Below, piece by piece: positions 1,940 through 23,126 of a stretch of 64,000 nt of DNA (within the stretch, counting starts at the first letter, position 1; each line of letters starts with the position of its first letter). Both the position numbers and the translations under genes were made by a program. The DNA comes from Clostridium sp. (GTDB taxonomy: Bacteria > Bacillota > Dethiobacteria > Dethiobacterales > Dethiobacteraceae): positions 1-64,000 of the forward strand of contig JAGXRV010000074.1 of the NCBI GenBank assembly GCA_018335695.1, in the 5' to 3' direction. The notes beneath the pieces are model-generated. The model was not told the DNA's origin and did not search any database. It was given only the letters and a program-made list of their open reading frames with translations.

Positions 1940-3073
1940 ATGAGTTTTGCACAGTACATGGAGCGTTATGACCGGCAGGAATTTTGGCAGGGACTTGAAT
2001 CAACAGATAGCAGTAAGGCAAGGATGCTCCTGGCTAAGGAAAGCATCTCTCCCGCAGATTTCCTCTTGCTCCTTTCTCCTGCGGCGGAAACTTTGCTTGA
2101 GCCCATGGCTCAAAAAGCCAGGCTGTTGACTATTAAGCATTTTGGTCGGAATATCTTGCTTTATACACCGCTTTATCTGAGCAATTACTGTATCAATCAG
2201 TGTCTTTATTGCCAATTTCACGCCGGGAAGCAGATTGTTCGGGAGCAGTTGAGCATTGACGAAGTGGAAGCCGAAGGCAAAAGTATTGCTGCCACAGGCA
2301 TTAGACATTTGCTCCTTTTAACCGGGGAGTCCTGTACTCACGCTACTACCGCTTATCTGTCAGACTGTCTTCGGATACTTCAGCCTTATTTCGCATCCCT
2401 TGGTCTTGAGATTTATACTTTAAGTGTCGAAGAGTATGCGCAGATGATTCAGTCAGGGGCAGAGAGTCTTACTCTTTACCAAGAAACTTACCGGCAGGAG
2501 AGTTATGCCAAGCTTCATCTTGCCGGTCCGAAGCGTGACTATTTCAATCGTTTGCACGCAGCGGAAAGAGCCTGCCAAGCCGGGATGCGTCGGATTAACA
2601 TCGGAGCCTTATTTGGGCTTGCCCCTTGGCGGCAGGAAGCTTTTTGGGCAGGTTTGCACGCTTATTATTTGCAAAAGCAATACCCTGCGACTGAAATTGC
2701 TATCTCTCTGCCAAGGGTTCGTGCAAGTCATGAGGGCTTTAGCGTTCCCTGCCCGGTAAATGATAAAGAATTGGTGCAGATTCTCTTGGCTTTTCGTCTT
2801 TTCTTGCCCCAAGCCGGCATTACTATCTCTACCCGTGAACGTGCGCAGTTGCGTGATCATCTTTTGCCTTTAGGTGTAACTACCATGTCAGTAGGTTCAA
2901 AAACTACGGTAGGCGGTTATTTTGCCGCAGAAAAAAAAGGCAATCAGCAGTTTCCCGTTGCTGATGAGCGGGGAATAGGGGAAATAAAAGAAATGATTAG
3001 GCGGCAGGGCTATCAGCCGGTAATGAAAGACTGGCCACATGGAGTCAAGGCGATGCCTGCGGGCGGTGCTTAA
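1940..3073 (+). CDS. thiH: 2-Iminoacetate (dehydroglycine) synthase ThiH, radical SAM
   Basis: Cleaves tyrosine with S-adenosylmethionine to supply dehydroglycine to ThiG. This is the oxygen-sensitive route used by anaerobes, as opposed to ThiO of aerobes. The radical-SAM CxxxCxxC motif is Cys84, Cys88 and Cys91. The length of 377 residues fits ThiH rather than the longer HydG, and the HydG C-terminal CxxC cluster-binding tail is absent. It lies 12 nt after thiG with GGTGG before the ATG and is the last gene of the operon. Confidence 0.93.
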   Translation: MSFAQYMERYDRQEFWQGLESTDSSKARMLLAKESISPADFLLLLSPAAETLLEPMAQKARLLTIKHFGRNILLYTPLYLSNYCINQCLYCQFHAGKQIVREQLSIDEVEAEGKSIAATGIRHLLLLTGESCTHATTAYLSDCLRILQPYFASLGLEIYTLSVEEYAQMIQSGAESLTLYQETYRQESYAKLHLAGPKRDYFNRLHAAERACQAGMRRINIGALFGLAPWRQEAFWAGLHAYYLQKQYPATEIAISLPRVRASHEGFSVPCPVNDKELVQILLAFRLFLPQAGITISTRERAQLRDHLLPLGVTTMSVGSKTTVGGYFAAEKKGNQQFPVADERGIGEIKEMIRRQGYQPVMKDWPHGVKAMPAGGA

Positions 3074-3091
3074 AAAAAAGAGGCTAAAAAC

Positions 3092-3120
3092 TTGATTTTA
3101 CAAGGAGAATGTGTTACTAT
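3092..3120 (+). promoter_or_regulatory. Promoter of tRNA-Arg
   Basis: TTGATT (3092-3097), a 17-nt spacer and TACTAT (3115-3120) end 8 nt before the first base of the tRNA. This fits a dedicated stable-RNA promoter between thiH and the tRNA. Confidence 0.6.
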
Positions 3121-3128
3121 CTCTTTAC

Positions 3129-3205
3129 GCGCCCGTAGCTCAGTCGGATAGAGTAACTGACTACGAATCAGGAGGTCGGAGGTTCGAATCCTCCCGGGCG
3201 CGCCA
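3129..3205 (+). tRNA. tRNA-Arg(ACG)
   Basis: A 77-nt cloverleaf. The acceptor GCGCCCG (3129-3135) pairs fully with CGGGCGC (3195-3201), then comes discriminator G and an encoded CCA. The T stem GGAGG/CCTCC around TTCGAAT is perfect. The anticodon loop is CTACGAA, anticodon ACG, which is normally edited to ICG by TadA; tadA itself lies 2 kb downstream. The outermost anticodon-stem pair is an A/G mismatch. Confidence 0.95.
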
Positions 3206-3736
3206 TTTAGAAAAGCTTGAACCATGAGAGCTTTTTGCCCTTGTGGTTTTTTCGTGCGCTTGACTTGGCGTAAAAATTATTGCTACATGTTCATCCTGCT
3301 GATAGAATGTTTTAAGAGTGAAGGGAGGTTGCCCAATGTTAAAAAAGTTTCAATTGCATGATGGTTCTTAGGTCATTGACTTATTGGGTGTTTTATGGTA
3401 AGTTGGCGTAGGCGGTAACATCCCTGAATCGTTTTGGTTTTACCCAAACCCATTATGCCACAATCGCGCTGGGTACCGCTGTTGGAACTACTTTTGCCAT
3501 GGTTAGGAGGTGATAGTGTGGACGCCGATCCTAGTAGTTTATCAGGCAATTTCAAAGAACCGAACAGAACTATTGGGAAGGGCATGCACTATTACCTCAT
3601 TGAGTCAGCTTGGATTTGATTATAATTCACTTGGTCATTCCTTCTGCCACTTAATGGGCTTACGTATTGCTGTCTGTTTCCTTTATGTTCTGATGCGGAA
3701 AGGAAAAATGGCGCAATATGTTCAAGTCTTTTTTAT
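3206..3736. other. Gene-free stretch, possibly a decayed membrane-protein gene
   Basis: About 530 bases lie between the tRNA and mgtE with no convincing gene. Translation around 3430-3500 and 3510-3740 gives two membrane-like pieces in different frames (GFTQTHYATIALGTAVGTTF and a later stretch with GLRIAVCFLYVLM), separated by stops. This looks like the frameshifted remains of a transporter-type gene, but I do not recognise the family and the pieces could be chance. No riboswitch was recognised ahead of mgtE. Confidence 0.3.
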
Positions 3737-3754
3737 TTGACAGGAGGTTTCATC

Positions 3755-5095
3755 ATGACATTAAAAGAACTTACGAAGCTCTCATCAATGAAGGATTACG
3801 CAACCCTTAAAAACGTATTATCAGAGATGTTTGCTGCCGATATTGCAGAGCTTCTGGAACACACTGATGATAAAAACTCAATCCTCGCTTTCCGTCTTCT
3901 TTCAAAGGATATGGCCGTTGATGTTTTCGCGCACTTGTCGACTGAAAAACAATCTGCAATTTCCAAGCTTACCAACGAAGATGAACTGTCTGAAATAGTA
4001 AACGGATTGTTTTTCGACGATAAAATTGACTTTCTAGAGGAAATGCCGGCTAATCTAGTTAAGAAGATACTCAAAAATTCTACCGAAACCGAAAGAAAGC
4101 TTGTTAACCAATTCCTGAAATACCCCAATAACTCCGCAGGCTCTTTGATGACCATTGAGTTCGTTGATTTAAATAAACAGATGACTGTGGCACAGGCATT
4201 CGAAAGAATACGTACAACTGCTCTCGATAAGGAAACAATATATACCTGCTATTGCGTTGATTCACACAGAAAGCTTGAAGGATCGGTATCACTCAAAGAT
4301 CTTATCATGGCCTCACCGGAAACTGTAATTGAAGATATTATGCGCAAAGAGTTAGTATCGGTAAATACTCATGAAGATCAGGAATATATTGCTTCTGTGT
4401 TCAAAAAATACGATTTATTGAGCCTGCCGGTGGTAGACCATGAACGTAGATTAGTTGGAATAATCACCGTAGATGATGTGGTCAAGGTGATTGAGAAAGA
4501 AAATACCGAGGACTTTTATCTGATGGCGGCAGTTCACGGCACTACCATGAAGGATAAATTGTTGCAGGTTTCTGTGCTTAACGCCATACGCTTCCGCCTC
4601 CCGTGGCTTATCATAACTCTTTTTGGCGGACTGCTTGCGGGCGGCGTTATCGGAGTTTTCGAGGAAGCGTTGACTGCCGTCATTGTGCTGGCGATGTTTA
4701 TACCGGTAATTATGGATATGGGTGGCGATGTAGGTATTCAGACTTCGACGATTGTCATCAGGGGTCTGGCAACCGGAGATATCAATAATAAGAATGTTTG
4801 GAAATGTCTTATGCGAGAAGTAGTAATCGGGATAACGATGGGTGTCATTTGTGGTGTTGTAATTGGCGCAGCGGGTCAACTATGGCAGGGTGTACCCATG
4901 ATAGGCGTAGCCGTAGGCGGCGCTATGATTGCCACTATTACCGTGTCATCTTTTGTTGGTGCTTTTATGCCTGTAATATTTGATCGTTTCGGGGTTGATC
5001 CCGCCGTTGTGTCAGCACCGCTTATAACTACCATAAAAGACATCACCGGTCTTGTTATTTATTTCGGCATTGCAACTTTGGTCATGGGAATATAG
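3755..5095 (+). CDS. mgtE: Magnesium transporter MgtE
   Basis: Membrane Mg2+ channel gated by cytosolic magnesium. The 446-residue protein shows the family order: an acidic helical MgtE-N domain (about 1-125, with FAADIAELLEH), a CBS pair (about 130-250, with SLMTIEFVDL and LPVVDHERRLVGIITVDDV) and a C-terminal five-helix channel domain (about 280-446) containing RLPWLIITLFGGLLAG and MDMGGDVGIQ. ATG 3755 is chosen because GGAGG at 3743-3747 is well placed; an upstream in-frame TTG at 3737 lacks a ribosome site. It is monocistronic. Confidence 0.93.
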   Translation: MTLKELTKLSSMKDYATLKNVLSEMFAADIAELLEHTDDKNSILAFRLLSKDMAVDVFAHLSTEKQSAISKLTNEDELSEIVNGLFFDDKIDFLEEMPANLVKKILKNSTETERKLVNQFLKYPNNSAGSLMTIEFVDLNKQMTVAQAFERIRTTALDKETIYTCYCVDSHRKLEGSVSLKDLIMASPETVIEDIMRKELVSVNTHEDQEYIASVFKKYDLLSLPVVDHERRLVGIITVDDVVKVIEKENTEDFYLMAAVHGTTMKDKLLQVSVLNAIRFRLPWLIITLFGGLLAGGVIGVFEEALTAVIVLAMFIPVIMDMGGDVGIQTSTIVIRGLATGDINNKNVWKCLMREVVIGITMGVICGVVIGAAGQLWQGVPMIGVAVGGAMIATITVSSFVGAFMPVIFDRFGVDPAVVSAPLITTIKDITGLVIYFGIATLVMGI

Positions 5096-18280: not shown

Positions 18281-18775
18281 GTGGACAAGAAAAAGAAGAC
18301 AATTTTGGTTAGCGCCTGTTTATTGGGCGCTCGCGTTAATTATTGCGGCGGTCATAATGAACATTTAGCCGTCCGCCTGCTAAGGGAAAAGGCCGTCTTG
18401 ATTCCGGTTTGTCCTGAACAACTGGGAGGGTTGGCAACACCGAGGCCGGCTGCGGAAATTAAGGGCGGCACCGGGAAAGATGTTTGGAGCGGATCAGCTA
18501 AAGTTTTGACGGTGACAGGAGAAGATCGGACGGAGGCGTTTAAGCGTGGCGCCAGGGAAGTCTGGCTGCTGGCCGAGGTCTTAGGTGCCGAAGCAGCGCT
18601 TTTAAAGGCTCGGAGTCCTTCATGCGGTCATGGTGAAATTTATGATGGAACTTTTAGAGGCGTCAAAATTGACGGAGATGGAATAACAGCGGCCTTCTTG
18701 CTCGGGCAGAATCTGCCCGTTTTCAGCGAGGATGAGCTGGCGCTTTGCGAAAAGTGGCTGTCAACTCAGTACTGA
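18281..18775 (+). CDS. DUF523/TudS-family protein, 3' end altered by an IS
   Basis: A 164-residue protein with the three conserved cysteines of the DUF523 (TudS thiouracil desulfurase-like) family: Cys13 in SACLLG, Cys44 in CPEQLGG and Cys115 in SPSCG, which in TudS bind a [4Fe-4S] cluster. The coding end lies inside an insertion sequence. The last shared codons are WLST; before insertion the protein would have ended WLSTGES, and it now ends WLSTQY. The loss is at the tail only, so function is probably kept. GTG start directly after the previous gene. Confidence 0.85.
   Translation: MDKKKKTILVSACLLGARVNYCGGHNEHLAVRLLREKAVLIPVCPEQLGGLATPRPAAEIKGGTGKDVWSGSAKVLTVTGEDRTEAFKRGAREVWLLAEVLGAEAALLKARSPSCGHGEIYDGTFRGVKIDGDGITAAFLLGQNLPVFSEDELALCEKWLSTQY
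18757..18766. repeat. Left target-site duplication of the DruA element
   Basis: GCTGTCAACT, identical to 21577-21586 on the other side of the element. Confidence 0.75.
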
Positions 18776-18848
18776 CGCATGAGTAACAAACCTTGCTGTT
18801 TGCATCGGGTTTAATGTATTAGCAAAAAAATTTTATCGCAAAAAGGAC

Positions 18849-18877
18849 TGGACAAGCTTAAAAACGTATGAGATAAT
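18849..18877 (+). promoter_or_regulatory. Internal promoter of the DruA element
   Basis: TGGACA (18849-18854), 17 nt, GATAAT (18872-18877), 35 nt before the first gene of the element. Confidence 0.5.
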
Positions 18878-18911
18878 AGTGTGGAGAAACTGTAACAGGG
18901 AGGCCCGCACT

Positions 18912-19814
18912 ATGGCTGATACTTCGAACAAAAACACCATCTTGCTGTTTGGACGGGACTTTACCGAACTTGATCTTTGGATTGTAAAAGAGACTGTTCG
19001 CCGGTATCCCCGGCTCTCCCAGAATGAGCTGGCCCACACCATCTGCGAGAACCTGAAATGGTTTGCCCCAAATGGCAACAACAAAGTCGATTCCTGTATA
19101 CAGCTTTTACGAAAACTGGAATCGCAAGGCGTTATTAAATTACCGGCAATACGGAGTAAAAGAGTACCAAAGGATCAACGTATTGCGCCCACATTGCAAA
19201 CAGACGCACCTGCTGAGATTGTGGCAGACTTATCCCAGATCGGCATCCAGGTTCAACCTGTACGGGAAGCTTCCCAGATGCGTCTGTGGAATGAGTATGT
19301 GGAGCGATATCATATTCTGGGATACAAACGTCCTTTTGGCGCCCATCAACGGTATTACATCCTTTCCGGTCAGGATCAACCCCTTGGGTGTATCCTGTTT
19401 TCTGCCGCTGCCTGGGCGCTGGAAGCCCGGGACCAATGGATTGGATGGACAGAAACTGACCGCAGCAAGAGGCTGCACCTGGTTGTTAACAATACCCGTT
19501 TTCTCATCTTCCCGTGGGTCCACGTTAAGAACCTGGCTAGCAAAGCCTTATCCTTAGCTGTCAAGCGTATCGGTTATGACTGGCAGGACCGTTATGGTTA
19601 CAGCCCGGTGTTGCTGGAAACCTTTGTAGATCCGGAGGAATACCGGGGTACTTGTTACAAGGCAGCGAACTGGATACTGTTAGGATGGACAGCGGGACGA
19701 GGGCGGATGGATCGGCACACACAATATCTGTCTACTCCCAAACATATCTACGTGTATCCCCTGCATCGCGATTTCCGGGCAATCCTGCGCGGAGAAAGCG
19801 GGGGTGACCAATGA
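18912..19814 (+). CDS. DUF4338 (DruA-like) protein of an insertion sequence
   Basis: A 300-residue protein. An N-terminal winged-helix-like region (about 10-75, with YPRLSQNELAHTICENL) is followed by the DUF4338 core: YVERYHILGYKRPFG, ARDQWIGW, VVNNTRFLIFPWV, VKNLASKALSLA, PVLLETFVDPEEYRGTCYKAANW and GRGR. This is the domain of DruA, found in Druantia anti-phage systems. Here it overlaps a transposase gene by ATGA and both lie between the terminal repeats, so it is more likely an accessory transposition protein than a stand-alone defence gene. ATG 18912 follows GGGAGG. Confidence 0.8.
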   Translation: MADTSNKNTILLFGRDFTELDLWIVKETVRRYPRLSQNELAHTICENLKWFAPNGNNKVDSCIQLLRKLESQGVIKLPAIRSKRVPKDQRIAPTLQTDAPAEIVADLSQIGIQVQPVREASQMRLWNEYVERYHILGYKRPFGAHQRYYILSGQDQPLGCILFSAAAWALEARDQWIGWTETDRSKRLHLVVNNTRFLIFPWVHVKNLASKALSLAVKRIGYDWQDRYGYSPVLLETFVDPEEYRGTCYKAANWILLGWTAGRGRMDRHTQYLSTPKHIYVYPLHRDFRAILRGESGGDQ

Positions 19815-21364
19815 GCGAAACCGTCCTCGAACGTCGTGAACGGAGGAGGAAACAACAGGAGCTTAGAGAACAGTTGAAAAGGCTGGGGATACAATATCCC
19901 CGCACCCCCACTCTTCCGAACCGCAAGTCTGTCCATAAAACAACAGAGGAAGAACAGGAAGCAGTACAGGCTGCCACCGAAGAGAAGCTCAAAACTGCAT
20001 ATCAATTGCTGCCGGTGCTGTTAGAAAAATTATCCTGCGTTCCCGACCCCCGGGATCCGAAAAAAATCAAACACCAGATGTCAGTGATGATGCTCTATGG
20101 TATCCTCTTGTTTATGTTTCAACTCGCGTCACGGCGGAAAGGGAATGAAGAATTAACCGGCCCCCAGTTGAGGGAAAACCTGTGCTCCCTTTTTCCGTAT
20201 CTGGAGGAAATGCCGCACCAGGATACCCTGTGCCGCCTGTTGGAAGAGCTGGATGTGGACCAGATTGAAGGCAGTTACTTAGATTTGTTGAGGCACTTAA
20301 TCCGCAGAAAGAAGTTTCGGCATCTTCTGCGCAAGAACAGGTATCTTGTAGCCATTGATGGCACACAAAAATACGTCATGAAGGAATGTTGGGACAAACG
20401 CTATCTTTACCGCAAGATCCAAGGCAAAGATGGGGAATGGGAGTATTACGCCTACGTGCTGGAGGCAGTCCTGGTGTTTGCCAATGGCATGGTACTGCCG
20501 CTGATGAGCGAGTTTCTGGAGAACAGTGAGGAACTGGTGGCGGTTGAGGATTATGAGAAATGGAAACAGGACTGCGAACTGAAGGCCTTCCACCGTCTAG
20601 CCAAGCGATTAAAGCAGGCGTTTCCAAAACTGTCCCTGACCCTTCTTCTGGACGGACTGTACGCCAACGGGCCGGTCATGGAAGCCTGCCGCAAAAACAA
20701 GTGGGAATTCATGATCGTGCTCAAAGACAAATCACTGCCCTCGGTATGGAAAGAAGCGGAAGGCCTGATACGTCTGGATACCGAAGAAGAGTACCAACTA
20801 AAACGGATGTGGCAGGGCCGCAGGCAAATATTCCGGTGGGCCAACGGGCTTGAATATGACTATGGTGTTAACCGGCGCAAATCGCTGATAATTCATATTG
20901 TGGTGTGCGAGGAAGCTTTTGAAGAAATCGATGCCAAAACAGGATTCGTCGTAACAAAAACCAGCCGCCACGCCTGGATTTCCAGTAACCCCATGGAGCG
21001 CAAGAATATCCATGAACGCTGTAATCTGATAGCTCGGAAACGGTGGCTACAGGAGAATAACATATTGAAAGAAAAGCACCAGGGCTACAGTTATGAACAC
21101 ATCTTCTCCCATAACTGGAACGCCATGAAGGGCTACCACCACCTGATGCATATCGCTCGCATGATAAACGAGATGGCCCTTCATTCCGTCTCCCTGATTG
21201 AACATGTCAAAGAGGTTGGCATTCAGTCATTCATTAAAAAGTTCTACATAGCAATGGTCTACACAAAGTTGGACACAGGGCGGATTCGGCGATTGACTGA
21301 GTTGCCTGGTCAATTACGACTGGTGCAGGAAGAAAATTGGAGAACAAGCAGGTTGGCGGCATAA
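19811..21364 (+). CDS. DDE transposase (IS4-superfamily-like)
   Basis: A 517-residue transposase. A charged N-terminal region (1-70) precedes a DDE catalytic domain: first Asp in VAIDGTQKY, second Asp in LTLLLDGLYANG, and Glu in RWLQENNILKEK, which fits the R-x3-E-x6-K part of the IS4 signature (the preceding Tyr is replaced). HNWNAMKGYHHLMHIARMINEMA closes the domain. The subfamily is uncertain. The full-length reading frame and intact ends suggest the element may be active. Confidence 0.85.
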   Translation: MSETVLERRERRRKQQELREQLKRLGIQYPRTPTLPNRKSVHKTTEEEQEAVQAATEEKLKTAYQLLPVLLEKLSCVPDPRDPKKIKHQMSVMMLYGILLFMFQLASRRKGNEELTGPQLRENLCSLFPYLEEMPHQDTLCRLLEELDVDQIEGSYLDLLRHLIRRKKFRHLLRKNRYLVAIDGTQKYVMKECWDKRYLYRKIQGKDGEWEYYAYVLEAVLVFANGMVLPLMSEFLENSEELVAVEDYEKWKQDCELKAFHRLAKRLKQAFPKLSLTLLLDGLYANGPVMEACRKNKWEFMIVLKDKSLPSVWKEAEGLIRLDTEEEYQLKRMWQGRRQIFRWANGLEYDYGVNRRKSLIIHIVVCEEAFEEIDAKTGFVVTKTSRHAWISSNPMERKNIHERCNLIARKRWLQENNILKEKHQGYSYEHIFSHNWNAMKGYHHLMHIARMINEMALHSVSLIEHVKEVGIQSFIKKFYIAMVYTKLDTGRIRRLTELPGQLRLVQEENWRTSRLAA

Positions 21365-21576
21365 CAAACATACACAGGCAGAACCAAAGTAAGCTCGCCA
21401 CAGGATCCGTCTGCCCGTTGAAGGCGCCGGACCAGCTACACGCGTAGAAGAAATTTAGTAATAGAGGATTTGGCGTAACAGGCCAGCAATTTTCGGTGAA
21501 AAAGATGCATAACAGCTACTAAAGCGTCACTTTCCCGCTTAGCGGGATTCTTAAAAAATGTTCACGCGTCAGGTCT

Positions 21577-21586
21577 GCTGTCAACT
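21577..21586. repeat. Right target-site duplication of the DruA element
   Basis: GCTGTCAACT, matching 18757-18766. It pairs with AGTTGACAGC at 21593-21602, the surviving palindrome. Confidence 0.75.
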
Positions 21587-21594
21587 GGAGAAAG

Positions 21595-21623
21595 TTGACA
21601 GCCGTCCGTGTTTTTGTTACGAT
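21595..21623 (+). promoter_or_regulatory. Sigma-A promoter of guaB
   Basis: TTGACA (21595-21600), a 17-nt spacer, TACGAT (21618-21623). The -35 box lies in the right arm of the palindrome that the insertion sequence interrupted. The promoter itself is intact. Confidence 0.75.

Positions 21624-21644: not shown

Positions 21645-23126
<1,482 letters not shown>

Follow-up and report, generated by a model that had tools for sequence, protein, structure and literature searches.

Organization of the locus

The window, i.e. the complete stretch of DNA analysed here, comprises 64,000 nucleotides of a contig assigned to Clostridium sp. (JAGXRV010000074.1). Between tudS (18281..18775, plus strand), which encodes a protein of the 2-thiouracil desulfurase family, and guaB (21666..23126, plus strand; IMP dehydrogenase, TIGR01302), it harbors an insertion sequence of about 2.8 kb, of which the draft assembly contains only one copy. 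The element spans 2,811 bp (18767..21577, plus strand); these borders are given by three loci without the element (L003, L004, L005) and by the termini CAG...CTG, which resemble those of its relatives. The left terminal inverted repeat is CAGTACTGACGCATGA (18767..18782, plus strand), and the right one, which reads CAGACCTGACGCGTGA on the minus strand (21562..21577), is the end facing the guaB promoter. Related elements have the termini CAGnnCTGACGCATGA...TCATGCGTCAGnnCTG, i.e. CAG...CTG, with the consensus CAGnnCTGACGCATGA at both ends.

The first gene of the element is druA (18912..19814, plus strand), whose reading frame is open already from a GTG at 18879. Its product belongs to the DruA family: PF14236 (DUF4338) scores 163.8 bits with a cut-off of 27 (Pfam E = 6.6e-48). 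The AlphaFold model (pLDDT 80) consists of an N-terminal helical, HTH-like part and a GNAT-fold domain, for which Foldseek matches GNAT acetyltransferases; a GNAT fold has also been assigned to DUF4338 in the literature (PMC10853773), in agreement with this prediction. The second gene (19811..21364, plus strand) codes for a DDE transposase of 517 aa with a predicted Tn5-like fold and weak similarity to ISAs1 and IS1380. A sequence search of the PDB with DruA and the transposase yielded nothing useful.

Reconstruction of the pre-insertion site

A preliminary description of this locus had rebuilt the site as it should have looked prior to the insertion. Its prediction can be compared with three genomes of the same genus that lack the element (G007, G008, and G009, corresponding to the loci given above): the predicted sequence GTGGCTGTCAACTGGAGAAAGTTGACAGCC is uninterrupted in each of them, the three are identical across the whole junction, and none deviates from the expected sequence. 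In agreement with the same proposal, TudS ends with WLSTGES* in all three element-free congeners and with WLSTQY* where the insertion is present, the final codons (GES* to QY*) now being derived from the element. The reconstruction is thus confirmed, and the element truly transposed into the site between tudS and guaB.

One detail had to be corrected. The 10-bp direct repeat GCTGTCAACT exists as described at 18757-18766 and 21577-21586, but the true target duplication has a length of 9 bp, CTGTCAACT, with its left copy at 18758..18766 and its right copy at 21578..21586, as deduced from the empty sites. Because related elements end with CAG...CTG and are flanked by 9-bp duplications, the tenth base (G, 21577) must be assigned to the element as its final nucleotide. 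Among ten intact elements, the duplication is exactly 9 bp long in nine and matches in 8 of 9 positions in one; based on these duplications and on the relatives' termini, a 10-bp duplication was discarded.

Also in accordance with the earlier reading, the element entered the left arm of a hairpin and altered the tail of TudS: the arms GGCTGTCAACT and AGTTGACAGCC of an 11-bp perfect palindrome are fully complementary. The original left arm lies at 18756..18766 (plus strand), and the right arm is now split off by the element. As the duplication repeats the left arm, a palindrome of 10 of 11 bp (GCTGTCAACT-GGAGAA-AGTTGACAGC, 21577..21603) is still located upstream of guaB, where it overlaps the -35 box, and nothing was lost there. 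The empty-site sequence folds well as an RNA (z = -4.9).

From this hairpin it had been concluded that the element favours palindromic or terminator-like targets. The perfect 11-bp stem of the window site speaks for such a preference, but it is the only long stem among the ten sites rebuilt from intact elements; the other nine possess stems no longer than those of shuffled sequence. In addition, a terminator scan at the window target found no terminator, and guaB in other genera of the family has retained the promoter with a different palindrome. Shuffle comparison, terminator scan, and the guaB genes of other genera led us to reject palindromes or terminators as the target signal; a preference of this kind is very improbable. 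In the window, palindrome and guaB promoter overlap, the -35 box TTGACA being contained in the right arm. Palindrome and change of the TudS tail are incidental; what the targets have in common is the position of a predicted promoter, not palindromy.

Two observations concern guaB itself. Upstream of guaB in L006-L019, which belong to other genera, the -35 box forms part of the loop of another hairpin (GGACAG-TTGACAC-CTGTCC). Between genera, the hairpin was remade, but the promoter was kept. Further, the guaB gene at L022 (G017:C5, a draft genome) has a chimeric appearance: it contains runs of N and a segment of foreign guaB, and probably results from misassembly.

Promoters at a fixed distance from the right end

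The predicted guaB promoter is TTGACA-N17-TACGAT. Its -35 box (21595..21600, plus strand), which is conserved in the family, starts exactly 17 nt past the right end of the element; the -10 box TACGAT follows with a spacer of 17 at 21618..21623 (plus strand). This arrangement, i.e. right end, 17 nt, a TTGACA-like hexamer, and a TATAAT-like hexamer at normal spacing, was first noticed in the flanks of about nine to fifteen relatives from other species and was then tested on new copies.

For this purpose, 45 distinct right ends were compiled by searching eleven genomes with an element-end pattern and by protein searches in class and phylum; the reversed end pattern gave no matches in the same eleven genomes. 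The mean combined -35/-10 score was 8.53 of 12 at offset 17, compared with 4.11 (sd 0.33) at the other 199 offsets. A score of at least 8 was reached at offset 17 by 29 of the 45 right ends and by 1.5% at each of the other offsets; 20,000 draws of random offsets never exceeded 5.0. When only the 22 right ends were considered that are set by gene order, i.e. by the transposase gene, the values were 8.82 and 4.05 (z = 11). A second, independent set of 81 new unclassified ends resulted from a pattern search of 98 genomes of the class. Here, offset 17 was again the best of 200, with a score of 6.09 versus 3.90 (sd 0.19). After a classification of solo ends by eye, which was guided by their inner sequence, a promoter was found at offset 17 in 17 of 27 right-type and in 2 of 27 left-type ends (Fisher p = 3e-5). 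The pattern is valid for transposases of 42-54% identity. Syntrophaceticus schinkii Sp3 carries numerous copies of the family.

The sequence logo contains zero information at the first 9 positions, which are the duplicated bases, and shows clear TTGACA and TATAAT boxes; the insertion point itself is without consensus. About a third of the right ends (e.g. L024, L095, L326) lack a clear promoter at offset 17, and in a few cases a promoter occurs at a different offset, such as 14 in L104. Right ends without a clear promoter may be degraded, may use other sigma factors, or may be true misses.

One might argue that the element inserts at random and survives only beside promoters, where the host was helped or spared. 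Insertion just upstream of a promoter would indeed be mild, but survival of this kind cannot yield an offset that is precise to a single base (17, not 16 or 18) together with a fixed polarity across many genera. Owing to this one-base precision, we discarded this explanation, which has a negligible probability.

Age and nature of the targeted promoters

The empty sites of the window element contain the guaB promoter. Further evidence comes from G009, a genome of the same genus that contains 137-bp miniature derivatives of the element: four of their empty sites were found in G000 (the genome of the window), G007, or G008, and in all four the same promoter was already in place. The predicted promoters pre-date the insertions. 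Likewise, TTGACA is not merely a feature of the insertion sequence, as the flanks vary between sites and the empty sites contain this motif. Two further target loci of G009, L118 and L125, are not rebuildable, as their two flanks originate from different places in congeners; these copies have probably recombined. Note that miniature elements that retain both family ends and measure about 137 bp occur many times per genome, namely as L117-L126 in G009/G028 and as L306-L334 in G080.

According to Rfam, five of the targeted promoters lead directly into tRNA genes (L071, L104, L146, L152, L159). Others precede a T-box leader (L065), a lysine riboswitch (L149), and a cobalamin riboswitch (L036), and OLE RNA lies behind the targeted promoter of L185, which is the empty site of a miniature element. 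In L149, the end lies at 3221, followed by the -10 box, whose last base is at about 3267, and by the riboswitch, which starts at 3303. Judged from flanks and empty sites, this family of insertion sequences with DruA and a Tn5-fold transposase very probably inserts at sigma-A-type promoters with base-pair precision. Its fixed distance and orientation with respect to promoters that were apparently there earlier would place it in a promoter-targeting class.

Classification of the transposase

The model of the transposase (pLDDT 67) has its best Foldseek match in Tn5 transposase (1mm8, E = 8e-9). Of the putative DDE residues, D183 and D281 are invariant and E421 is nearly so. The predicted Tn5-like DDE fold and the conserved acidic residues, as well as the CAGnnCTGACGCATGA terminal repeats and the target duplications, which measure 9 bp in nine of ten intact elements, assign the element to the IS4/Tn5 type. 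IS50 also makes a 9-bp duplication. The fold is shared with Tn5/IS50 of the IS4 superfamily at the level of the model, with an identity of only about 10%; in contrast to Tn5/IS50, the element studied here encodes the extra protein DruA and presumably chooses promoter-anchored targets. To our knowledge, target choice of this kind is not known from Tn5.

Other assignments fit less well. The NCBIfam equivalogs of IS1380 and ISH3 reach 25 of 180 bits and 21.6 of 225 bits, respectively, which does not place the transposase in either family. With the ISAs1 family, it shares a match to PF13808 (DDE_Tnp_1_assoc; 6e-11, residues 72-154), and a fusion of DruA with an ISAs1-type transposase exists in the same genome. 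However, PF13808 is the only model that passes its cut-off, there is no NCBIfam ISAs1 match, the remaining transposase is not ISAs1-like according to Pfam and NCBIfam, and ends and layout differ. Detectably related, with 22-27% identity, are ISNCY transposases such as Gloeothece WP_013335080. These differ in that no DruA was found nearby and in that the ends are CAGCAATT in the related elements of Calothrix, Nostoc, Anabaena, and Saccharobesus.

Target choice

Directly supported by the data are the 9-bp duplication, the fixed distance of 17 bp, the polarity, the earlier promoters, and the lack of a consensus at the cut. These properties fit a transposition complex that cuts with a stagger of 9 bp and leaves the right end oriented towards the promoter, at 17 bp from the -35 hexamer on its upstream side. 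To find its target, this complex would dock on RNA polymerase that occupies the promoter, contacting sigma region 4 or the alpha CTD. With the -10 box set at -12 to -7, the 9-bp duplication falls at about -52 to -44. The C-terminal domains of the alpha subunits of RNA polymerase bind in this zone, to which the UP element belongs. As the core promoter is left intact, an insertion would be near-harmless to the downstream gene.

In the main rival explanation, the -35 box would be read directly, by the transposase or by DruA, either of which would recognize TTGACA-like hexamers of naked DNA at a distance of 17 bp from the cut; promoters would appear because intergenic hexamers of this type mostly are promoters and insertions within genes were lost. 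The distance to the -35 box is fixed, whereas the position of the -10 box varies by one base (spacers of 17 and 18), which puts the ruler at the -35 box. This is what a direct reading predicts; docking on promoter-bound polymerase leads to a fixed distance to the -35 box as well. More in favour of the rival are sites with a -35-like hexamer alone (L033, L039, L101, L156) and two relatives without DruA (roughly 25% identity): L368 of Saccharobesus has TTGACA and a weak -10 box, and L372 of Nostoc has TTGGCA with no -10 box found, both at offset 17. The -10 boxes argue against it. A -10 box matching in at least 4 of 6 positions accompanies 20 of the 24 targets with a good -35 box, but only 20 of 100 TTGACA-like hexamers in intergenic regions of the window. 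Moreover, docking on the polymerase would account for hits at promoters that combine a poor -35 box with a good -10 box: among the 16 targets whose -35 box is poor, six possess a -10 box of at least 5 of 6 matches, compared with a background of 1.4%. Hence, reading of naked DNA is possible, but we would not expect it, and promoter-anchored insertion in conjunction with docking on the promoter-bound polymerase is, as a joint statement, slightly favoured. Taken as the best overall explanation, an insertion sequence anchored at promoters, for which polymerase docking is inferred, has in our estimation a probability of about 0.8.

A different question is which protein would confer specificity. DruA is frequent in Bacillota, where it was found in 42 of 398 genomes; its partners, encoded next to it or fused to it, are several different transposases, including those of DruA-IS66-like and DruA-Tn5-like elements. 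DruA could therefore be a targeting factor that brings promoter targeting to unrelated transposases of the ISAs1 type, the Tn5/IS50 type, and others. An unrelated element from the genome of the window would fit this idea: L242 (G000:C29:3500-11500, minus strand 2418-4488) is a fusion of DruA with an ISAs1-type transposase, is flanked by the 9-bp duplication CGGAGAATG, and resides 18 bp upstream of the T-box promoter TTGCAT-N17-TATACT, which is retained in its empty sites in G008 and G009. Similarly, L255 has TTGACA-N17-TATGAT at offset 19. On the other hand, no promoter was found at other DruA-ISAs1 copies (L243, L265, and L369/L370 from Thiodictyon), and a tendency towards a -35-like hexamer at offset 17 persists in relatives of the transposase that lack DruA (two of five with at least 5 of 6 matches). 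A targeting role that DruA carries from one transposase to another is thus rather unlikely; DruA, rather than the transposase, may or may not carry the specificity. The most far-reaching version of the polymerase model, in which the holoenzyme on promoters guides a widespread family, the insertions map active promoters to the base pair, and DruA acts as a transposon helper in targeting, is slightly less likely than not.

Comparison with other mobile elements and with Druantia

As a rule, bacterial insertion sequences choose their targets loosely or follow a DNA motif at the cut. In the family described here, no consensus exists at the cut; instead, the cut keeps a distance to the -35 box that is constant to the base pair, and the polarity is constant as well. 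The literature searched contained no description of a bacterial insertion sequence that targets promoters with base-pair precision, which is weak evidence given a partial coverage without ISfinder. The nearest functional analogy is with the yeast retrotransposons Ty3 and Ty1, which are targeted by Pol III factors: in both cases, insertion is precise to the base pair, occurs at a fixed distance from the promoter, and leaves the promoter intact. The machineries are unrelated, however, as Ty3 and Ty1 are eukaryotic retroelements and the element described here is a bacterial DNA transposon that would use sigma-A promoters. If the polymerase is the guide, the family would constitute a host-factor-directed bacterial transposon that spares neighbouring genes, and thus a bacterial counterpart of Ty3/Ty1 targeting. 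Under the same premise, its insertions would provide a map of real promoters in uncultured Bacillota derived from sequence only, among them those of tRNA operons, T-box and riboswitch leaders, and OLE RNA, and the element could be developed into a promoter-finding tool.

DruA is better known from Druantia phage defence. The protein studied here belongs to the same Pfam family (PF14236) as Druantia DruA, with a score far above the cut-off, but its gene resides on an insertion sequence bounded by terminal repeats. Apart from druA and the transposase gene, this element contains no genes, in particular no DruE helicase or other Druantia genes, and is not a Druantia defence system. DruA thereby gains mobile elements as a second setting. 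A literature search for DUF4338 in transposition found nothing, a weak negative in view of its partial coverage. In phages no DruA was found, and viral contigs contained one distant copy (L366) without recognisable ends. Two further arrangements of DruA were observed: in G008 (C27; L244:2420-4693), it is fused to a Tn5/IS50-like transposase in a protein of 757 aa, and in the genome of the window a DruA domain (G000:C14:16691-17233) lies within an open frame of 1,203 aa.
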